From the IMG/VR virus record IMGVR_UViG_3300035698_026482, positions 118,841 through 182,840 of that record: a DNA stretch of 64,000 bases; one strand, written 5' to 3'. Source of the stretch: a virus. The first letter of the stretch is position 1; each line of letters begins with the position of its first letter. Under the pieces are notes generated by a model. The model did not search any database. It was not told the origin of the DNA and saw only the letters and a list, made by a program, of their open reading frames with translations. Position numbers and translations under genes: made by a program. Shown here piece by piece: positions 55,296 through 63,325 of the stretch.

Positions 55296-55983
55296 TCAGC
55301 TTAAAATCTCTTTAAATTTGCCCCTCGAATAATCCTTGAAACGCATAGTTTTGCCGTTTCGATGATTTGTCACACGATCATTTTGGGTTTGAATAGTTCG
55401 GATTTTATCACCACGCATGCCAGATCCCACCTGTCGTCTACGCGTGCCTATTCGCTCCTTGTGCAGGCGGTCTTGCTCCATTTGCAACAGTCGAGCCCGC
55501 AAGATCCGCATAGCCTCGTCTTTATTCATTGATTGTGAGCGCCCGCCGTCGTGACGGATTTGGATGCCAGAAGGTTTATGCGTTAATCTGATACATGTGT
55601 CTGTCATGTTCCTGTGTTGCCCTCCTGGGCCGGAACCTCTGGTGGCCTGTATATCCACATCTTCATCTCGAATCTTCACACGAGCCTCTGAAGGCTCCTG
55701 AAGAATTGCTACAGTAACTGTGCTTGTGTGGGTCCGCCCACGCTTTTCTGTGGGAGGCACACGCTGCCAACGATGACCACCTGCCTCTTGCTCAAACTTT
55801 TTATATGCGCCCTTTCCTGATGCACGTAAAAGTATAAACCCAACCCGTCTTTCTAGAATTGTGAGGTTAAAGACACTCCTGGGTCGCGTACTTTCTGTAG
55901 ATTTCGTATTGATCAACGATCAATAGCTTAGAATCTGCGCCGCCTTCGGCTGCGCGTATTTCGATTAGGACTGTGTTTTCCAT
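55296..55983 (-). CDS. Phage peptide chain release factor, RF1-type, expressed through a +1 frameshift
   Basis: The zero frame starts at the ATG at 55983 (MENTVLIEIRAAEGGADSKL) and stops at UAA at 55867 after 38 codons. The +1 frame continues from AAC to a TGA at 55296. Joined at the CUU codon this gives 228 residues. The product has the RF core: IEIRAAEGG (codon-recognition domain start), GGHRWQRVPPTEKRGRTHTS with the PxT tripeptide as PPT at 76-78 (RF1-type: UAA and UAG), and the peptidyl-transfer motif GSGPGGQHRNMTD with GGQ at 120-122. PxT-GGQ spacing (44) is close to E. coli RF1. The N-terminal helical domain 1 of cellular RFs is missing. RF1 is about 360 residues. Confidence 0.85.
55866..55881 (-). 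promoter_or_regulatory. Programmed +1 ribosomal frameshift site, prfB-like but with UAA
   Basis: The minus strand reads CAGGAG-TGT-CTT-TAA-C. The prfB signal of bacterial RF2 is AGGGGG-TAT-CTT-TGA-C. Both have an SD-like purine run, a 3 nt spacer, the slippery CUU, an in-frame stop and a following C. Slippage of the P-site tRNA from CUU to UUU puts AAC in the A site and continues the release factor frame. Confidence 0.85.
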
Positions 55984-56064
55984 TGTTTTCTCTTTCGTTT
56001 GTTCGATGTGAAATAATGAAGCCGGCATCCATTTAGCGGATGCCGGCTTCACGAAAAATCTGCG

Positions 56065-57099
56065 TTAAACGGTTAATGAAATTGCACGTTCTTTGTAAAA
56101 CGTCAAGGCTCGACTATTAACAGCCTTAGAGACTTGTTGCCATTCAAGCTCATTATCGCTTAGTTCAAGTTCACACTCACGCTTAACATCACCACCCACC
56201 CATTTTAGGAATTCGCTGGTTGATTTCATGTCAATTGCGTGACCCATTTCTGCAAGATAGTCTAGACCTTTTTGCAGACGGTTATCTGTTACAGCGAATT
56301 CGACGAAAGCAGAAACAGACGCGATAACTTCAGGATCGATTGAAGGCCTATTACACTTGGCCTTTTTGACTTCCTTGTGTTTATCACCTTTTGTTTTAAA
56401 GAAGAGGTCACTATTACCCCAATGCTTACCGATAGGAATCCAAACGATGCCTTCGCCTAGACCATCGACGCCAAAGCGCGCGCCCCACGGACATTTATCT
56501 TCGACCATTTGTGTGTACTTCTCCGCTTCGCTCGCTGCAAGCTCAACGGCTCGCGTGTCATTGAAATCAATTTGTAGACGCCATTTACCTACATCAAGAA
56601 CAGAGTGGATACTTGCTGCTTCATACTTGTTCGCAAGGCGAGGTACGGCGTCGACATAACGAGAAGCATCGTTGTCATCGATGACCTTTACGCCGAAGAT
56701 GACCCATTGTTTTTCAGGAAGCTTATTAACAGCAACACCGTTTTGAATACCTGGGCCGCACCATTCGCCATAAATGACAACTTTTTCTGTCGCTTGAATC
56801 TTATGTTTAGTACGAATCTTTGACTCGATTTCACGAATTGCAGATGATTGTGATTCGCCGCTAACAAACTTAGCAAAGCCACTATTATCCGAGGTCAATG
56901 AAAGCTCACGATTACGAGACTGCGCAACAAGGCTATCGTTTGAACATACCACACTGGCGTTTGTGCCATGAAGCTTGATCGTTCCTCTGAACGTTACAGG
57001 CGATGGCACACGATATTGCTCGTTTTCAAAACCCTTATTTGCGGTTTTGACATATCGAACAATCTGGTGAAGTGCTTCTACGTGCGTGAATTTATACAT
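56065..57099 (-). CDS. RNA ligase, Rnl2-like nucleotidyltransferase
   Basis: This 344-residue protein has motif I as TFRGTIKLHGTNASVV, where KLHGTN corresponds to the KxHGTN of T4 Rnl2 and its relatives, motif III-like VVIYGEWCGPGIQ, motif IV EGIVWIP and motif V LFFKTKGDKHKE. Rnl2 enzymes seal 3'-OH/5'-phosphate nicks in RNA duplexes. With RtcB nearby the phage carries both healing chemistries for cut tRNA. A strong AGGAGAG precedes the ATG. Confidence 0.88.
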   Translation of the reverse strand: MYKFTHVEALHQIVRYVKTANKGFENEQYRVPSPVTFRGTIKLHGTNASVVCSNDSLVAQSRNRELSLTSDNSGFAKFVSGESQSSAIREIESKIRTKHKIQATEKVVIYGEWCGPGIQNGVAVNKLPEKQWVIFGVKVIDDNDASRYVDAVPRLANKYEAASIHSVLDVGKWRLQIDFNDTRAVELAASEAEKYTQMVEDKCPWGARFGVDGLGEGIVWIPIGKHWGNSDLFFKTKGDKHKEVKKAKCNRPSIDPEVIASVSAFVEFAVTDNRLQKGLDYLAEMGHAIDMKSTSEFLKWVGGDVKRECELELSDNELEWQQVSKAVNSRALTFYKERAISLTV

Positions 57100-57131: not shown

Positions 57132-57206
57132 TGGAGCCTCCACCCCGAATCGCACGGGGGTCTAAGGGTTACAAATCCTTTGTAATAGCTACTATACTAT
57201 AGAGGC
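57132..57206 (-). tRNA. tRNA-Thr(UGU), atypical T-loop
   Basis: Acceptor GCCTCTA pairs with TGGAGGC; CCA is encoded. The anticodon loop is TTTGTAA. The T-stem CCCCG/CGGGG is perfect, but the loop reads TGCGATT instead of TTCRANY, and the D-loop lacks the usual GG. Confidence 0.8.
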
Positions 57207-57211
57207 TTGAG

Positions 57212-57287
57212 TGGTGCCCAGTAACGGATTTGAACCGCTGACCTTCTCCGTGTAAAAGAGTTGTTCTACCACTGAACTAACCAGGCA
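57212..57287 (-). tRNA. tRNA-Val(UAC)
   Basis: The anticodon loop TTTACAC, D-arm GTTCAGTGGTAGAAC and a canonical T-loop (TTCAAAT) are present. CCA is encoded. Confidence 0.9.
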
Positions 57288-57394
57288 TGGTGTGTCCTGT
57301 GGGAATCGAACCCACTCCTCCCGAGACTCCCCGTCTCTTTTTCAAGAGAACGGATCACTGAACACGGTTGCCGACAGCCTCCGGCGCGGGACAC
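57288..57394 (-). tRNA. Class II tRNA-like gene, isotype unclear, 107 nt
   Basis: Acceptor GTGTCCC/AGGACAC with ACCA end, a Ser-like D-arm (GCCG...CGGC) and a perfect T-arm GTGGG-TTCGATT-CCCAC. Between them are two competing hairpins: CTCTTGAAAAAGAG (its TTGAAA resembles a Ser UGA loop) and GAGAC/GTCTC. It is about 15 nt longer than a usual Ser tRNA, so the isotype cannot be fixed. Confidence 0.5.
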
Positions 57395-57419
57395 ATAGTT
57401 GTTTGAGTAAAGTGTTGTT

Positions 57420-57495
57420 TGGAGCCCGCAGCAGGAGTTGAACCTTCGATCTCTGCGTTCGAAGCGCAGTGTCTTATCCACTAGACGAAAGAAAC
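57420..57495 (-). tRNA. tRNA-Arg(UCG) with degenerate acceptor stem
   Basis: A perfect anticodon arm CTGCG-CTTCGAA-CGCAG and a good D-arm. The acceptor GTTTCTT opposite TGCGGGC has one G-C, four G-U pairs and two mismatches, and the T-stem has one mismatch. CCA is encoded. It may be decaying or unusual. Confidence 0.7.
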
Positions 57496-57509
57496 ATACT
57501 TTAAATGTT

Positions 57510-58028
57510 TTAAACCAACTTAATCTTGAGCCCTTGCTCCTTCATTGACATAAGCGCCTCTGCATTGCCCATCGCATCATTGACTGGGTTGTGATCATGT
57601 TTGGTTTTGCGTAGGTGCTTGAACGACTTAAACATGTCGTTTTGCATTCCCTTCCAAAGATCGTTTTGATTGCGCGAACTAAAGCCGAATGGGTTCTTTC
57701 CGAGATAATGGTGAAAATACCAGTTAATCCACTGCCAATCAAATCCGTTATTATCGGCGATGAAAATAGGCCGACCGACGCTAACACTCTCAATCCACGC
57801 TGCAAACTTCATCATCGTTTCATATGGATTGTCAAACTCAAGGTGTTCCTCACGAGAAAAGCCTGAAATAGCAAGTGCCTCAGGAATCCACGAGTTTGAA
57901 ATAGGCTTCGTTGTTCCGTAGAACGTGTCTTTAAGACCGGGGCGCACGACAACAGCTCCAAAGCAGACCATTGAATAGTTGTATGGGATTGGGCCGTCGG
58001 CCTCAATATCCATCATAATATAGCTCAT
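57510..58028 (-). CDS. DEDDh 3'-5' exonuclease (DnaQ/RNase T-like)
   Basis: This 172-residue protein has exonuclease motif I MMDIEADGPIPYN (Asp7, Glu9), motif II-like IFIADNNGFDWQWINWYFHH and motif III KHDHNPVNDAMGNAEALMSM (His and Asp). Small stand-alone enzymes of this type trim DNA or RNA 3' ends, and RNase T/oligoribonuclease members mature tRNAs. It lies inside the tRNA array. The ATG is 6 nt after an extended TAAAAT. Confidence 0.83.
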   Translation of the reverse strand: MSYIMMDIEADGPIPYNYSMVCFGAVVVRPGLKDTFYGTTKPISNSWIPEALAISGFSREEHLEFDNPYETMMKFAAWIESVSVGRPIFIADNNGFDWQWINWYFHHYLGKNPFGFSSRNQNDLWKGMQNDMFKSFKHLRKTKHDHNPVNDAMGNAEALMSMKEQGLKIKLV

Positions 58029-58034
58029 AAATTT

Positions 58035-58043
58035 ATTTTACCA
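58035..58043 (-). promoter_or_regulatory. Extended -10 promoter TGG-TAAAAT, leaderless type
   Basis: TGG-TAAAAT followed by AAATTT and the ATG at 58028, with no SD between. Confidence 0.65.
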
Positions 58044-58075
58044 CAAATTGAAAGGGTTTACAAGAAAGCTGAAAT

Positions 58076-58150
58076 TGGAGCCCTGACCCGGTTCTGCCCC
58101 GGGATTTCTACCATACCACAGTAGCGTGTTCCTGTTGTCACCATCAGGGC
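58076..58150 (-). tRNA. tRNA-Thr(GGU), atypical T-loop
   Basis: A perfect acceptor GCCCTGA/TCAGGGC with TCCA, anticodon loop GTGGTAT, T-stem CCCGG/CCGGG with loop GGCAGAA in place of TTCRANY. The D-loop holds CAGGAA. Confidence 0.75.
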
Positions 58151-58151
58151 G

Positions 58152-58227
58152 TGGAGCCCATAATCAGAATCGAACTGATGACCTCTTCGTTACGAATGAA
58201 GCGCTCTACCATCTGAGCTATACGGGC
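58152..58227 (-). tRNA. tRNA-Thr(CGU)
   Basis: Acceptor GCCCGTA/TATGGGC, D-arm AGCTCAGATGGTAGAGC, anticodon loop TTCGTAA, canonical T-loop TTCGATT, CCA encoded. Confidence 0.9.
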
Positions 58228-58275
58228 GTAATGCGGGACATTTGACCAAGTCTAGCCTCCCGTAGGCCATGAAAG

Positions 58276-58788
58276 TTACTGGATCCACATCTCCCATTCA
58301 GGAGGAAGCTCACCATTTTTCGCTAACAATGTTCGCAGCACCTTGTGACGGGTAGGAACAACAGGTTGATTAAGCAGTTTCATACCCGATTCACGAATAG
58401 TGCGATCTGCCTTAGCGTGATTGCACGGTCTGCAACAGGTTGTAATGTTAAGCCATGAAGTTTGTCCGCCCTTTGAACGAGGCTGAATGTGATCGAACGT
58501 TAGGTTACGAGGCGCTGCCTGCTTACCACAGTATTGACAGCTGTGATTATCACGAAGGAATACGTTCTCGCGACAGAACTTTGTGTGCGATGGCGTAGGC
58601 TTCGAGTAATCCTTAAGACGAAGAACTGCAGGCACCGCAAATTTGTCGGACACCGTATGAATAAAGGCATCCTCATAGTCAGCAACGGACTCCGCCTTCT
58701 CTAGAAAGAGCAAGCACATCGCGCGCTGCCAATCAATTGTCTCGAGCGGCATATATCCTTGATTGAGAAGAAGGATTCTTTTGTTCAT
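58276..58788 (-). CDS. HNH endonuclease
   Basis: This 170-residue protein has the HNH core FLRDNHSCQYCGKQAAPRNL, then LTFDHIQPRSKGGQTSWLNI and TTCCRPCNHAKADR, with two Cys pairs for structural zinc and catalytic His-Asn-His. A GAGGTAA element precedes the ATG. It lies within the tRNA array, a usual place for free-standing homing enzymes in phages; a role in genome packaging is an alternative. Confidence 0.88.
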   Translation of the reverse strand: MNKRILLLNQGYMPLETIDWQRAMCLLFLEKAESVADYEDAFIHTVSDKFAVPAVLRLKDYSKPTPSHTKFCRENVFLRDNHSCQYCGKQAAPRNLTFDHIQPRSKGGQTSWLNITTCCRPCNHAKADRTIRESGMKLLNQPVVPTRHKVLRTLLAKNGELPPEWEMWIQ

Positions 58789-58826
58789 AATAGTAAATTA
58801 CCTCTTAGTTTGTGTTTTGAATAATT

Positions 58827-58901
58827 TGGCGGTACATACGGAATTCGAATCCGTGCTAAAACCGTGACAGGGTTCGGTGCTGGCCACTACACTAATGTAC
58901 C
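58827..58901 (-). tRNA. tRNA-Asp(GUC)
   Basis: Acceptor GGTACAT/ATGTACC, anticodon loop CTGTCAC, canonical T-loop TTCGAAT, GCCA end encoded. Confidence 0.92.
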
Positions 58902-58910
58902 AAATGTGGT

Positions 58911-58985
58911 TGGTCCTTTGGACAGGTAACGCACCTGTATCTCTGCGGCTTCAACGCAGCGCTAATCTATTTCAGCTACCAAAGG
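58911..58985 (-). tRNA. tRNA-Phe(GAA), atypical T-loop
   Basis: Acceptor CCTTTGG/CCAAAGG, anticodon arm CTGCG-TTGAAGC-CGCAG, T-stem ACAGG/CCTGT with loop TGCGTTA, D-stem GCTG/TAGC with a loop lacking GG. CCA is encoded. Confidence 0.8.
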
Positions 58986-58988
58986 ATG

Positions 58989-59071
58989 TGGTCGGGTGGG
59001 TGAGAATCGAACTCACCTGCGTAAACGCTGAAGTTTTACAGACTTCGTCGCCACCTTGGCTGTTCCACCCG
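58989..59071 (-). tRNA. tRNA-Tyr(GUA)
   Basis: Acceptor CGGGTGG/CCACCCG, anticodon arm GAAGT-CTGTAAA-ACTTC, long variable arm GCG/CGC type as expected for bacterial Tyr, canonical T-loop and CCA. Confidence 0.92.
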
Positions 59072-59218
59072 ATAACGGGATTCGGTTTTCTCTCTACTGT
59101 TTGTTTCGAGGTACCTTAATCACCGGAAACGCTCTCGCTCCTGTCACGTCTAAATTGTCCCCGCGACGTTCCGGGTTATTTTGTCGATATTGTATATTGT
59201 TATTCCCTATTTAGAAGT

Positions 59219-59833
59219 ATGAAGATTCATGTTGAAAAATTTTGGGATGATGAGTTGAATGAAGAAAATGAAGATGAATATTCAATTGCACAAATTAAAC
59301 GCCATGGCGTAAAAAAGAAGCAGCATAGTCCAGTTACATTATTGGTGCCAATCGCCGTCCGCCTCAAGAGATGGATACCCGTCAAAGCGTATATGCTTTG
59401 TATGGGAACGCGAAATAGCTTTGAGTGCGACACATTTAAAAAGCATTTACCCGCCGATGCAAGTGTGAAATCAGTTGATATTGCGTCTGATGCCAAGGCT
59501 GATTTTACTATGAGCTTTAATCAGTTCCCAGAAGACTGGGCTGAAACATGCGATGTGATTTATTCAAATGCACTTGATCATGCAACAGACGCTACGGCTA
59601 CGTTTTACGAATGGCTTCGCATCCTTAAGCCGGGTGGAATTGTTGTCTTACGAACCACCCAAGACCCTAGAATTAGTCCCGCCGATTGCTGTAGCTTCAC
59701 AGATGAAAATACGCTTAATTTTATTGAGTGGTGTGTGGGTGTTGAACTTCTCCTGTTTGAGTTAATTGATGGCGAGTCTCATTTCTTTATTAGAAAACTC
59801 GATTGCGTTGATGGTGACCCAACGGAGAATTGA
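59219..59833 (+). CDS. SAM-dependent methyltransferase-like protein, plus strand
   Basis: This 204-residue protein has CMGTRNSFECDTFKKHLP in the place of motif I, VKSVDIASDAKADF as the acidic strand and LRILKPGGIVVLRTTQDP as the beta-5 region. Methyl transfer to a sugar or RNA is possible. Its last codons run into the opposite-strand tRNA-Glu gene. It is the only plus-strand gene in the tRNA array. The 147 bp before it shows no clear -10 box. Confidence 0.65.
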   Translation: MKIHVEKFWDDELNEENEDEYSIAQIKRHGVKKKQHSPVTLLVPIAVRLKRWIPVKAYMLCMGTRNSFECDTFKKHLPADASVKSVDIASDAKADFTMSFNQFPEDWAETCDVIYSNALDHATDATATFYEWLRILKPGGIVVLRTTQDPRISPADCCSFTDENTLNFIEWCVGVELLLFELIDGESHFFIRKLDCVDGDPTEN

Positions 59834-59886
59834 ACTCCGATTATACGATTGAAAGTCGTGTATCTTAACCGTTAGATGATTGGGCC
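59812..59886 (-). tRNA. tRNA-Glu(UUC)
   Basis: Anticodon loop CTTTCAA, D-arm ATCTAACGGTTAAGAT, canonical T-loop TTCAATT and encoded CCA. It overlaps the end of the opposite-strand methyltransferase gene by 22 nt. Confidence 0.9.
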
Positions 59887-59897
59887 ATTTGACGATT

Positions 59898-59974
59898 TGG
59901 AGATTCCTCTCGGACTTGAACCGAGGACCCACAGCTTAACAAGCTATCGCTCTAACCAACTGAGCTAAGGAATC
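59898..59974 (-). tRNA. tRNA-Asn(GUU)
   Basis: Acceptor GATTCCT/AGGAATC, anticodon loop TTGTTAA, T-loop TTCAAGT, CCA encoded. A second Asn(GUU) gene lies at 62926. Confidence 0.92.
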
Positions 59975-59985
59975 TTATTGTGTCT

Positions 59986-60444
59986 TTACTCGTATTTCTC
60001 CTTGAGAATACGCAGTTGTTCTCGTTCGGCGTCTTCTGCAAGCTTTTTTAATTTCTTGTCTTTCTCTAGAGCTTTCTCTTTCCTGGCGGCATTCCAAAGC
60101 TTCATTTCTGCTTCATATTTTTTATTTTTGGATTCCCATGTCTTAAGCTTTTTAAGATAGGCGGCCATATCCTTGGCGTAATGCGCGTTCTCTTGCGGAA
60201 TAGGAAGCACCTTCCAGATTTCAACGCTCGTCGCCCCATAATCATACTCATCAACGTCGACTTCAATCTTGAGATAAGCCTCGCTTGTTTCAGCAAGCTC
60301 TAAAATAGTCTCACGCGAAATTTCTATTTCTAGATCGCCATAGCCACTATCCAAAAGCGTGCGTTGCTCATTGCTAATAATCTTTAGCGGCATGTCCGGC
60401 TCGCGAGGCTTACTTGGCTTTTTGATTGATGTTTTGATTTTCAT
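59986..60444 (-). CDS. Coiled-coil hypothetical protein
   Basis: This 152-residue protein has a beta-rich N-terminal half (LEIEISRETILELAETSEAY) and a long charged C-terminal helix (KKYEAEMKLWNAARKEKALE). It overlaps the small CxxC protein gene by 4 nt (ATGA). Family unknown. Confidence 0.65.
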   Translation of the reverse strand: MKIKTSIKKPSKPREPDMPLKIISNEQRTLLDSGYGDLEIEISRETILELAETSEAYLKIEVDVDEYDYGATSVEIWKVLPIPQENAHYAKDMAAYLKKLKTWESKNKKYEAEMKLWNAARKEKALEKDKKLKKLAEDAEREQLRILKEKYE

Positions 60445-60647
60445 AATGAATCCGATTGTTGTTGTGAAATGTTGTTTTCTGTAAGAATTCGATTAGCGCG
60501 CTTGTAGTTTCCGCCACGAGGACTAATCTGCAATTTGATAAGAGCTTGTCTAATATTGGGCGTAGTTTTCAAAGCTTCAATAAATTCGCTTTCGGTAACT
60601 GATCCGTATGCGCCTTCATGATGATGTTCGCAGTTTTCACATTGTAT
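60441..60647 (-). CDS. Small CxxC/HTH protein related to homing endonuclease domains, apparent ATA start
   Basis: The frame reads (M)QCENCEHHHEGAYGS and then LKTTPNIRQALIKLQISPRG with GNYKRANRIL. The CxNC-HHEGxYGS start and the IRxAL-LGLxPxGGNY helix-turn-helix are both known from phage homing endonucleases, but the nuclease core is missing. No ATG, GTG or TTG is available: the frame opens after a TAA at 60651-60653 and the only plausible start is ATA at 60647. TATAAT ends 5 nt before it. The stop overlaps the downstream ATG, so translation is likely real. 68 residues. Confidence 0.5.
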   Translation of the reverse strand: MQCENCEHHHEGAYGSVTESEFIEALKTTPNIRQALIKLQISPRGGNYKRANRILTENNISQQQSDSL

Positions 60648-60652
60648 ACTGT

Positions 60653-60658
60653 ATTATA
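60653..60658 (-). promoter_or_regulatory. -10 box TATAAT before the small CxxC gene
   Basis: A perfect TATAAT lies 5 nt before the proposed ATA start and 23 nt after the tRNA-Lys gene. It would make a leaderless or near-leaderless transcript. Confidence 0.5.
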
Positions 60659-60681
60659 CGCAATTCGAACTGTGGTTAAAA

Positions 60682-60769
60682 TGGTGAGCAGAGAGGGATT
60701 CGAACCCTCGTGGGTGTTAACCATCCGCTTAAAAGGCGGTTACAATCGACCAGGCTCTGTCATCTGCCC
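60682..60769 (-). tRNA. tRNA with anticodon UUU (Lys) but a class II-size variable region
   Basis: Acceptor GGGCAGA/TCTGCTC, anticodon arm ACCGC-CTTTTAA-GCGGA (four pairs), canonical T-arm GAGGG-TTCGAAT-CCCTC, CCA encoded. The variable region is 14 nt with a TGG/CCA stem. Bacterial Lys tRNA has a 5 nt variable loop. Confidence 0.8.
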
Positions 60770-60854
60770 AAATACGGGCCTGTTGAGTGACCCGCTAAAT
60801 CTTGTTTCCTTGTTTATGTTTTCGTTTGTTCATGATGAGTATCTTTCTTGAAGT

Positions 60855-60929
60855 TGGTGGCCCTACGGGGAATCGAACCCCGATCTTAACACTGAGAATG
60901 TTGTATTCTTGCCGTTGAACTATAGGGCC
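60855..60929 (-). tRNA. tRNA-Glu(CUC)
   Basis: Acceptor GGCCCTA/TAGGGCC, anticodon loop TTCTCAG, canonical T-loop TTCGATT, ACCA end. Confidence 0.9.
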
Positions 60930-60932
60930 GCA

Positions 60933-61008
60933 TGGAGGCTCCACCCCGAATCGAACGGGGATCGCTTGGTTTGCAATCAAGTGCCATAATCCGTTAGACC
61001 ATGGAGCC
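60933..61008 (-). tRNA. tRNA-Cys(GCA)
   Basis: Acceptor GGCTCCA/TGGAGCC, anticodon arm CTTGA-TTGCAAA-CCAAG, canonical T-loop TTCGATT, TCCA end. Confidence 0.9.
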
Positions 61009-61011
61009 AGT

Positions 61012-61082
61012 TGGCAGGTCGTGAGGGGATCGAACCCTCTAAATCGCTTTTGGAGAGCAATTGCAGAACCATCTGACGACCT
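61012..61082 (-). tRNA. tRNA-Trp(CCA)
   Basis: Acceptor AGGTCGT/ACGACCT, anticodon loop CTCCAAA, canonical T-loop, GCCA end. The D-arm is short. Confidence 0.88.
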
Positions 61083-61086
61083 AGGG

Positions 61087-61161
61087 TGAGCAGGGCGGGA
61101 TTTGAACCCACCTGGTGGAGTTTAAGAGACTCCTGTAACGGCCTGACTGTACTACCTGCCC
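61087..61161 (-). tRNA. tRNA-Lys(CUU)
   Basis: Acceptor GGGCAGG/CCTGCTC, anticodon arm GGAGT-CTCTTAA-ACTCC, T-loop TTCAAAT. The 3' end reads ACCC, so CCA is not fully encoded. Normal short variable loop, unlike the UUU gene. Confidence 0.88.
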
Positions 61162-61193
61162 AAACTAGTCTTAAAGAGTACTCACATTCTGCA

Positions 61194-61266
61194 TTTATCC
61201 ATGTTGGACTCGAACCAACGATCTCCGCCCAAACCAGCGTCGCTTTAACCACTAAGCTAATGGTAA
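61194..61266 (-). tRNA. Degenerate tRNA, possibly Gln(UUG)
   Basis: D-arm (GCTT/AAGC) and T-arm (GTTGG-TTCGAGT-CCAAC) are good. The acceptor top is unpaired. The best anticodon stem has one mismatch and gives loop GTTTGGG, read as UUG; Pro(UGG) is an alternative with worse pairing. No CCA. Possibly a pseudo-tRNA. Confidence 0.5.
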
Positions 61267-61346
61267 CAGTGTTGTGCAATAAGACTCACTTCATGAGTTC
61301 TGTATAAATTGGTGTACTAAATCTCCTTATCTTTTCCTCATTTACG

Positions 61347-61421
61347 TGGTGGAGGATGACGGTTATGCTCCGTCGATGACACATTGCAAGTGTGTGGGTT
61401 TCCTGATTAGCCTAATCCCCC
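61347..61421 (-). tRNA. tRNA-Ala(UGC), atypical T-loop
   Basis: Acceptor GGGGGAT/ATCCTCC with ACCA, anticodon arm ACACA-CTTGCAA-TGTGT, T-stem GACGG/CCGTC with loop AGCATAA. The D-loop contains CAGGAA as in tRNA-Thr(GGU). Its 5' end overlaps the 3' end of the HNH remnant. Confidence 0.78.
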
Positions 61422-61880
61422 ATATTTTTCATTCCATTTAACAATTTTTTCATTTAATGCTTTAAGCGTTATTTCACTACTGATTCCTTTACTTATATTT
61501 TTTCCGTGTTGCATTAGTTGACAATTCGCAGGGTGCGATAATATCTCTGGCGCAATGTTGTTATCGTATCCGTATCTGACGGACATAATATGATCCCTTG
61601 ATACGCCTGATAGGTTATTGCCTCCATTTGACGGTGTATACCATCCATGTTCTTTTATAAGATTGAAATTAAATTCATCTGGATAATCAGCTAGTCCGAA
61701 CTTAAACGCACATTCTCGTCGATATTCGCGAAGTGTTTTTCCGCGTATTACTTGTAATTTTTGTAATTCTTCTCGTCGCGATGCAGCGCTGTACTTTGCG
61801 CCACACGATCTTGAACAAAGCTGTTGATACGAACTATTTTGGAAAAATTGGTTTTTGAACCTTAAAAGTTGCTGGCGTGT
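61407..61880 (-). pseudogene. HNH homing endonuclease remnant without a start codon
   Basis: An open minus-strand frame of 157 codons from a TAA at 61881 to a TAA at 61407 encodes LCSRSCGAKYSAASRREEL, FGLADYPDEFNFNLIKEHGW, GVSRDHIMSVRYGYDNNIAP and SHPANCQLMQHGKNISKG. The last two are a clear HNH pattern (DH, N, H/N). The CxxxC pair matches half of the usual N-terminal zinc finger; the other half and any ATG, GTG or TTG start are missing. I read it as 5'-truncated. Confidence 0.7.
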
Positions 61881-62015
61881 TTATCAATCTATACACTAGA
61901 CACCCCTTTTCGCAGTGACCCGGGTCGATAAGCTCCGGCTTTCCAGCGATGCTGTGTTACTTTACACTAGTATTTGATTAATCAAACACCCGGCACGCCA
62001 CCACCGGTTTTGCAT
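61881..62015. other. Gap between HNH remnant and tRNA-Arg
   Basis: No protein frame. It contains a palindrome TTTGATTAATCAAA near 61973-61986. The minus strand 61871-61947 can be drawn as a loose cloverleaf (GCTGG/CCAGC, CCGG/CCGG, GTCAC/GTGTC, GTGT/ACAC) without tRNA consensus bases. It may be a decayed tRNA. Confidence 0.35.
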
Positions 62016-62090
62016 CTGGTACCCACGCAAGGAGTCGAACCTTGATATCATCGTCCGTAGCGATGCGCTCTATCCGTTGAGCTACGAGGG
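62016..62090 (-). tRNA. tRNA-Arg(ACG)
   Basis: Anticodon arm CATCG-CTACGGA-CGATG, D-arm GCTCAACGGATAGAGC, canonical T-loop TTCGACT, CCA encoded. One acceptor mismatch. Confidence 0.9.
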
Positions 62091-62118
62091 CATGTTTTGT
62101 TGTGTTGTTTCTTGTCGG

Positions 62119-62193
62119 TCTCCACGCCTCGATTCGAACGAGGAGTCTCTGCATCCCAAATGCAGCGCGATAACCAGATTACGCTACGTGGAG
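62119..62193 (-). tRNA. tRNA-Pro(UGG)
   Basis: Acceptor CTCCACG/CGTGGAG, anticodon arm CTGCA-TTTGGGA-TGCAG, T-loop TTCGAAT. The 3' end reads ACCG, so CCA is not fully encoded. Confidence 0.9.
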
Positions 62194-62209
62194 ATATTTT
62201 AAAAAGCTG

Positions 62210-62881
62210 TTACCAACTCATTTTTCGGCCCAAAGACCATCCTTGAACTGTCCAGGTGTTTAAATCAGTTTTTTTAATCCTTTTGTTTTGTTGAAGTGTT
62301 TCATTGAAGATCCAACATGTTCCATATTGTGAATTTCCTTTGCCGCGTTGATGTTTTGAGCTAGCCAGTCCGACTTTTCTTTTTGTTTCTTCTGTATGTT
62401 TATGTCCCAAAAATGGTGGATTCTCTCGATTATTTTTTGCGACCTTTTGGTATGCTACTTCTGAAAAGATTCCTCTGCTTTCGGCCTTTAAACGACGATT
62501 TCGTTCTGGATTAAGTAGTTTATTTCGTTCGCTGATAATCTTTATTTGTTTAGTGCGCCAGATTGGATCTTTCCAGAGTCTTTTAAGAAGTAGCCTGCCA
62601 TGAATTCCGCCCCCACCACCGCCAAGCGCGATGTTATATGTGTTGTGATTAGCGACAAATTGTTCAGTAACAAGACTTTTTTCGTAATTCAATGCTTCTT
62701 TTTCTGTATCAAATGACTCGAGTATTTGTTTTCGGAAATGCTCAATTCCATGCTTTTTGATGGCCTTATTGAGATATGTTCCGCTACCCATATAGCCGTC
62801 ATTTAAGTCATTTGTCGAGTGTTTTCCGATATAGATCTTTCCGTTGAGAATATTGGTGATTTGATAAACGTAGTGTTGCAT
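62210..62881 (-). CDS. GIY-YIG homing endonuclease with NUMOD-type DNA-binding repeats
   Basis: This 223-residue protein has the GIY-YIG nuclease core in variant form (HYVYQITNILNGKIYIGKHS, then YMGSGTYLNKAIKKHGIEHF and YEKSLVTEQFV). The C-terminal half carries NUMOD3-like segments (FLGHKHTEETKRKVGLASSK, HQRGKGNSQYGTCW). It resembles phage Seg-type free-standing homing enzymes. It lies between tRNA genes, a common target zone. TATAAT lies 11 nt before its ATG with AGAG between. Confidence 0.9.
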   Translation of the reverse strand: MQHYVYQITNILNGKIYIGKHSTNDLNDGYMGSGTYLNKAIKKHGIEHFRKQILESFDTEKEALNYEKSLVTEQFVANHNTYNIALGGGGGGIHGRLLLKRLWKDPIWRTKQIKIISERNKLLNPERNRRLKAESRGIFSEVAYQKVAKNNRENPPFLGHKHTEETKRKVGLASSKHQRGKGNSQYGTCWIFNETLQQNKRIKKTDLNTWTVQGWSLGRKMSW

Positions 62882-62925
62882 GCTCTAATTCGATTATACA
62901 CAATCGAGTTCGAGTCTTAAAAAGG

Positions 62926-62999
62926 CTCCAGGTGAAGGCCTCGAACCTTCAATCACTTGGTTAACAGCCAAGCCGCTTGCCTACTTTGCGTAACCCGGA
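62926..62999 (-). tRNA. tRNA-Asn(GUU), second copy
   Basis: Acceptor TCCGGGT/ACCTGGA, anticodon arm CTTGG-CTGTTAA-CCAAG, T-stem GAAGG/CCTTC with loop TTCGAGG. The 3' end reads GCCT, so CCA is not encoded. It differs widely in sequence from the Asn gene at 59898. Confidence 0.85.
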
Positions 63000-63017
63000 A
63001 TGAAATCTTTTATTTTG

Positions 63018-63110
63018 AGCCGCAGAGACTACGAAGCCCGATCGAACCGCCTTCTTGTTGCCGCCCGAAGACGGTGGCGGATCGTCTCGGGCTAGGATTC
63101 TAGTGTGGCT
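63018..63110 (-). ncRNA. Structured RNA candidate with UUCG tetraloop
   Basis: The minus strand forms a long hairpin: outer AGCCCGA/TCGGGCT (7 bp), then CGATCCGCC/GGCGGTTCG with one mismatch, then CCGTC-TTCG-GGCGG, a stable cUUCGg tetraloop stem. Flanking AGCCACA and TGCGGCT pair 6 of 7, and CTAG-AATC-CTAG forms a small 5' hairpin. The length (93 nt) is near that of class II tRNAs, but no anticodon or T-loop is seen. No U-tract follows, so not a terminator. Confidence 0.5.
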
Positions 63111-63205
63111 GGGATATTCTTGACTGCAACCACAAATTTTGGGCACATTGCGGCGGGCGTACGATTTGCACGCTTTGTATCGCTATATGTGTTCCAGAGT
63201 TTCAT
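63092..63205 (-). CDS. Doubtful small frame, 37 residues
   Basis: ATG at 63205 (MKLWNTYSDTKRANRTPAAM) to TAG at 63092. No SD or -10 box with the leaderless spacing is visible, and the end overlaps the structured RNA candidate. Listed because it fills the 127 bp gap between RNA genes. Confidence 0.25.
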   Translation of the reverse strand: MKLWNTYSDTKRANRTPAAMCPKFVVAVKNIPATLES

Positions 63206-63237
63206 GGGAATAAAGAGTGTGTGTTGTGTGTGTGAAA

Positions 63238-63325
63238 TGGTAGCGGGGGCGAGGAGTTGAACCTGCAAGGGAAGTGTTCCCACCGGATTATGAGCCCGGG
63301 TGCTTAGCCTTTTGCATACCCCGCA
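63238..63325 (-). tRNA. tRNA with anticodon CAU and a class II variable arm
   Basis: Acceptor TGCGGGG/CCCCGCT with a mismatched first pair (T-T), D-stem TGC/GCA, anticodon arm CCGGG-CTCATAA-TCCGG, variable arm GGGAA-CAC-TTCCC (5 bp), T-loop TTCAACT with a weak stem, ACCA end. The unpaired 1-72 and G-C rich anticodon stem recall initiator Met, but the variable arm does not. Confidence 0.75.

Follow-up and report, generated by a model that had tools for sequence, protein, structure and literature searches.

A compact RF1-like phage release factor with an apparent +1 frameshift gate, and its stop-gated relatives in phages and bacteria

The gene at 55296-55983 on the minus strand of the window, by which we mean the whole 64,000-nt stretch of DNA analysed here, very probably encodes a compact RF1-like release factor that consists of domains 2 to 4 only and depends on a programmed +1 frameshift, acting as a gate, for its full translation. 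It belongs to a family of stop-gated RF1-like factors in phages and some bacteria that is apparently widespread and undescribed. Frameshift autoregulation of release factors is taught as a peculiarity of RF2; the RF1-like family has both frameshift and in-frame-stop gates, employs all three stops, and occurs in phages as well as in cultured bacteria. A survey from 2025 reported prfA to be without a credible programmed shift or prfB-like motif (PMC12421855), and the Atkins review of 2016 stated that no bacterial RF2 gene was known to contain, within a single frame, an in-frame UGA subject to readthrough and that, again with respect to in-frame stops, the UAG/RF1 counterpart was unknown as well, with a giant-virus release factor being the only case named (PMC5009743). 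Our literature searches, covering open-licence papers, revealed no phage RF1 case of stop gating either, which agrees with the statement of the initial annotation that no RF1-type gene with such a signal was known to have been described.

The gate and its product in the window

The initial annotation, made from the letters alone, had proposed that AGGAG, a 3-nt spacer, CUU, UAA, and C on the minus strand form a site at which a +1 slip would fuse a 38-codon frame to a 190-codon frame. Sequence, coordinates, and frames were all found to be as claimed, with the following features (positions of the 64,000-nt stretch):

55983, minus strand: start codon ATG of the release factor
55870..55983, minus strand: zero-frame segment, which begins with ATG, ends with the slip codon CTT, and spans 38 codons; it encodes the domain 2 N-terminal lobe (MENTVLIEIRAAEGGADSK...TQECL); this N-part is conserved in relatives
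55933..55935, minus strand: Asp17, a family signature (Glu in ordinary RF1)
55876..55880, minus strand: Shine-Dalgarno (SD)-like stimulator AGGAG
55875-55873, minus strand: spacer TGT, 3 nt, between AGGAG and CTT
55866..55872, minus strand: gate, with slip codon CTT (55872-55870), stop TAA (55869-55867), and context base C (55866); CTTT is invariant in +1 members
55296..55868, minus strand: +1 frame segment of 190 codons plus TGA, comprising domains 3 (with GGQ) and 4 and the remainder of domain 2 (PF00472, 98 bits)
55749..55757, minus strand: stop-recognition tripeptide PPT (RF1-type PxT), residues 76-78
55617..55625, minus strand: GGQ peptidyl-hydrolysis motif, residues 120-122
55298-55296, minus strand: terminal stop TGA of the +1 frame

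If one base is skipped after CTT, the 38 and 190 codons yield a stop-free joint frame of 228 residues, as proposed. The site matches the prfB-type signal (SD-like element 3 nt ahead of CTT, stop, C), and for AGGAG-N(2-5)-CTTTAAC as well as for looser prfB-like patterns, the release factor gate is the sole occurrence in the 64 kb window. A strong GC-rich hairpin, which is terminator-like with a weak T run, lies between the RNA ligase gene described below and the release factor (56018-56050, minus strand).

In profile searches, the 228-residue protein scored 220 bits against RF1, compared to 128 bits against RF2 and 82 bits against PrfH. The RF1 score is below the curated cut-off of 423 bits, and the window protein is not a full-length RF1: the match begins at position 112 of the 361-position profile and runs close to its end, i.e., domain 1 is absent. 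Together with the structure model, this bears out the earlier description of a phage protein that lacks domain 1. The AlphaFold model (pLDDT 92) matches ribosome-bound RF1 with a TM-score of 0.95, compared to 0.66 for PrfH, and places slip residue 38 in a loop of domain 2 that is flanked by helix 16-35 and strand 39-46. The PPT tripeptide, which the initial annotation had recognised as RF1-type, was located at 55757-55749; the RF1-type Gln is kept in its surroundings (HRWQRVPPT), and GGQ is present. With PPT in place of SPF and a far better RF1 profile score, the product is not an RF2. Within the entire 182,840-base record, the gated gene is the sole release factor gene that was detected.

The lack of domain 1 is shared with PrfH, and two RNA ligase genes are found near the release factor:

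56065-57099, minus strand: RNA ligase gene (PF09414), the immediate upstream neighbour of the release factor
50194-51432, minus strand: RtcB ligase gene, downstream of the release factor at a distance of about 4 kb

Both the missing domain and this neighbourhood would fit a PrfH-like rescue factor that acts with an RNA ligase on damaged ribosomes. However, PxT is retained, the PrfH profile score not only falls far behind that of RF1 but also stays below its own cut-off of 167 bits, the fold match to PrfH is likewise the poorer one, and RtcB is close to the release factor in only one other locus, all of which renders this reading improbable. A PrfH/RtcB operon as such was rejected, as RtcB is located downstream and is not adjacent in the window. 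A cluster of 17 tRNAs (57132-63325) lies beside the genes for RNA ligase, release factor, and RtcB, making this a phage translation and RNA-repair region.

Stop gates across the family

Viral contigs were scanned by alignment, with up to 80 loci per scan, and one scan of bacterial genomes provided 58 loci; duplicates were removed, and N and C parts were placed with profile HMMs before gates were counted. The first homologues (L001, L002, and L003) already carried CTT-TGA-C at the codon of the window's gate. Overall, a +1 shift is required in 114 distinct sequences, including the window, with UGA as the gate stop in 84, UAG in 27, and UAA in 3 (the window being one of them). The shift occurs at the window's codon in 108 of the 113 other +1 members, while it lies 10 codons later in four betaproteobacterial members, and profile placement puts it four codons earlier in L166. 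In all +1 members, CTT precedes the stop and T comes next; the base after the stop is C at 51 of 71 tabulated viral +1 sites. An SD-like element was found in about 100 of the 114 +1 members, with none recognisable in 13, and in-frame members are without such an element. Correspondingly, the median anti-SD duplex energy is -9.3 (UGA) and -10.0 (UAG) kcal/mol at +1 sites, compared to -1.9 and -1.5 kcal/mol in the in-frame classes. With respect to CUU-UAA-C and AGGAG, the conservation of which the initial annotation had proposed to test in homologues, the slip sequence is universal among +1 members and the SD-like element is frequent, but UAA is confined to three of them.

A lone one-base shift resembles an indel, and a sequencing error or a decaying pseudogene therefore had to be considered. 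In fact, L330 (Nannocystis pusilla Na p29) and L062 differ from close relatives by one base at or near the gate and resemble assembly errors or lesions. For the window, however, the same codon, CTTT, and a stop recur in 108 other distinct loci, complete isolate genomes included, with the frames intact on either side of the gate. Since independent homologues carry the same signal at the same codon, the gate is neither chance nor a local indel error, and an error or pseudogene was rejected as exceedingly improbable on the basis of this conservation. That the frameshift is conserved indicates that it is programmed rather than accidental, in line with the initial annotation.

Among 217 family members, a total from which nine ordinary host RF1 and two loci with indels are excluded, 209 are gated by some means and 8 are ungated; this share cannot be regarded as unbiased, as the scans were seeded mostly with gated members, although the search patterns were protein motifs rather than stops. 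One ungated member (L029) is nested inside the window's own clade. Besides the gates, the family is marked by Asp17, which takes the place of the Glu of ordinary RF1 (9/9) in 213 of 215 members, and by a Lys or Arg directly after PxTE as a second signature.

In addition to the +1 members, 93 relatives have a single frame with one or two in-frame stops at codons 37-52, nearly all of them UGA, and these stops represent apparent readthrough gates. The largest in-frame clade comprises 71 sequences with UGA where RF1 has Trp. In this clade, TGA is found at the site in 71 of 71 sequences, TGG is used for each of the 89 remaining Trp codons, and five of the genes terminate with TGA; therefore, UGA is a stop there and the site is special. 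Judging from this codon usage, the UGA would be read through, most likely with insertion of Trp. In other in-frame clades, UGA occupies different codons, frequently as UGA-CUN, or two in-frame stops are present, for example in L007 and L010 from phages of 635 and 735 kb. In L050 and L053, the two stops are unlike each other (UGA, then UAG) and are located 129 and 153 nt past the start of the gene.

Recoding is known in huge phages, to which some of these in-frame relatives belong, and the frequent coincidence of UGA with the Trp position of RF1 would also be compatible with UGA (or UAG) being a plain sense codon rather than a gate. While neither the coverage by ORFs nor the density of TGA under codes 11, 4, and 15 discriminated with respect to genome-wide recoding, the per-site count of TGA and TGG given above did, and it speaks against sense-codon use. 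Furthermore, other ORFs nearby terminate with TGA, no UGA-suppressor tRNA was found near the gene in 60 loci scanned, and the Rhizobium, Bosea, and Variovorax plasmids that carry such copies belong to standard-code bacteria. Reassignment is thus an unlikely explanation, and we continue to treat these stops as gates. One phage with a UGA-gated release factor encodes two tRNA-Trp(CCA) genes (L309:1079-1233), and a Hirsh-type UGA-reading tRNA-Trp is possible there.

Gated copies in cultured bacteria were identified in Nannocystis exedens DSM 71 (+1 UGA gate), N. poenicansa FL3 and Minicystis rosea (both complete chromosomes), Archangium lansinium and Pyxidicoccus fallax (both UAG), and Achromobacter anxifer. 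Moreover, a search with a constructed family-like query, the matches of which were checked in the DNA itself, revealed that megaplasmids of Variovorax, Bosea RAC05, and Rhizobium leguminosarum TP16 harbour copies with an in-frame UGA; SRS16 is one such Variovorax strain. In cultured strains, the gated gene accompanies ordinary release factor genes: each of eight bacterial genomes examined contains several PF00472 genes; an ordinary in-frame prfA was seen in five of the eight, and a prfB with its own canonical CTTTGAC gate in four. Gene finders split or miss stop-gated release factor genes, as exemplified by the Variovorax copy, which is annotated as two separate proteins in RefSeq, and this may be the reason why the family has gone unnoticed.

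Known systems and the origin of the gate

The closest counterpart is prfB, which likewise combines an SD-like element, a 3-nt spacer, CTT, a stop, and usually C with a +1 shift in a class-I release factor. The 2025 survey found a premature stop in prfB of 64% of genomes, with UGA in 98.6% and UAA in 1.4%, so that UAA variants exist there too, whereas UAG, which gates part of the RF1-like family, was found in 0 of 8,164 prfB genes (PMC12421855). The two systems further differ in their products, i.e., RF2 (SPF, reading UGA) for prfB and an RF1-type protein without domain 1 for the window, and in the position of the site, which is near codon 26 and upstream of domain 1 in prfB but at codon 38 and inside domain 2 in the window. 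In-frame-stop relatives, too, set the RF1-like family apart from prfB.

The eRF1 of Mimivirus and Megavirus is also a virus release factor expressed via UGA-C readthrough and frameshifting, with a stop that varies between UAG and UAA among relatives; however, it is unrelated, of eukaryotic type, found in amoeba viruses, and a single omnipotent factor for all stops (PMC3521657). PrfH/RFH is a class-I release factor homologue without domain 1, but has a different recognition region and invariably adjoins a conserved upstream gene (RtcB-like), and no frameshift has been reported for it (PMC1586002). RF1 and RF2 genes have been reported in huge phages, whereas a gating stop or frameshift is not mentioned for them in the part of that report at hand (PMC7162821); some of the loci analysed here (LR7452xx/LR7565xx records) are probably huge-phage genomes.

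On a quick tree of 163 rows, in which many inner branches are weak, parsimony requires at least about 24 changes of the gate stop, and the well-supported branches by themselves imply no fewer than 8 changes for UAG. The UAA of the window lies within a 14-member clade with mostly UGA and, from its placement, is most readily taken as a single instance among many stop swaps. Across the family, the recognition loop showed no correspondence to the gate stop. As a general rule, the proposed adaptation of the stop to the RF1 specificity of the product is not supported: UAA gates 3 of 114 members, UGA is the majority, and the loop is unchanged. Between the convergent and the transferred circuit that the initial annotation had suggested, convergence fits best, since the site is in domain 2, the RF1 score far exceeds that for RF2, and sister clades have in-frame stops; we therefore argue for an origin of the gate independent of prfB. 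The repeated swaps amount to a natural experiment that addresses what prfB-type frameshifting senses.

What the gate may sense

By analogy with prfB, which provides the precedent for such a mechanism (PMC12421855; PMC5009743), a ribosome arriving at CUU-UAA-C would be expected to pause, with AGGAG pairing to 16S rRNA at the 3-nt spacing and placing the ribosome under strain. If no release factor acted quickly, the CUU tRNA would slip to UUU, and translation would resume in the +1 frame. Since the slip would occur when release is not quick, the output of full-length factor should be proportional to the slowness of termination at the gate stop. In the window, UAA would be readable by the PPT product, and thus negative feedback, in addition to sensing of both host factors, would be expected. 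Throughout the family, gates can consist of UGA, UAG, or UAA slip sites or of an in-frame UGA that needs readthrough, and common to all members would be a rise in synthesis when a stop terminates slowly, which leads to our working description of a termination-failure sensor coupled to a back-up release factor. As the gate may be any stop, by slip or readthrough, the most likely general function appears to be the sensing, by the mRNA itself, of termination that fails or is scarce, with such a back-up factor being switched on in response.

Textbook RF1 cannot read UGA. The proposal that the switch stop is one that its own product can read would therefore apply to the window, with UAA and PPT, but not to the UGA majority (84/114). 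With UAA and UAG gates, an RF1-type product would close a negative loop; with UGA gates it would not, unless the product reads UGA. Since most gates are UGA, simple feedback is unlikely to be family-wide. It is this occurrence of UGA gates on an RF1-type protein that makes release factor specificity directly testable.

How far the product's own reading extends divides the remaining explanations, each of which we hold only tentatively. The product might read UAA and UAG only, so that a mostly-UGA gate would report scarce host RF2 and raise RF1-like activity for UAA, with no direct feedback in UGA members. This cross-sensing, a possibility of limited weight, would account for the predominance of UGA, both among +1 members (84 of 114) and among in-frame gates (nearly all), and for the retention of PPT and of the Gln in HRWQR. 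On the other hand, the same loop accompanies UAG (27) and UAA (3) gates of repeated origin, an observation that sensing of RF2 alone would leave unexplained, and the window's own gate is UAA. Conversely, the truncated protein could be omnipotent, i.e., read all three stops, in which case any stop would be usable in an autoregulatory gate. The free swapping of gate stops with an unchanged loop is consistent with this, as are the family-specific Asp17 and the Lys or Arg after PxTE; yet the RF1 selectivity residues are otherwise retained, and we regard omnipotence as conceivable but doubtful. The strongest form of the termination-failure sensor, in which a shortage measured at any stop turns on a back-up factor for all stops, can likewise be put forward only as a speculative proposal. 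If it were true, such a factor could act when infection, a toxin, or a drug disables RF1 or RF2.

Several members deviate from the common layout. The gene of a 595 kb phage carries tandem +1 gates, CTT-TAA-C followed by CTT-TGA-C, in a leader ahead of domain 2 (L006:1912-2000), and these would behave as an AND gate across two stops; L078 has a single leader gate, CTT-TAG-C. Finally, in three gated members (L001, L039, and L081), the recognition loop is shortened, with TSN, DRT, and ISG, respectively, in place of PPTEKR, and these factors may release without the usual stop reading.
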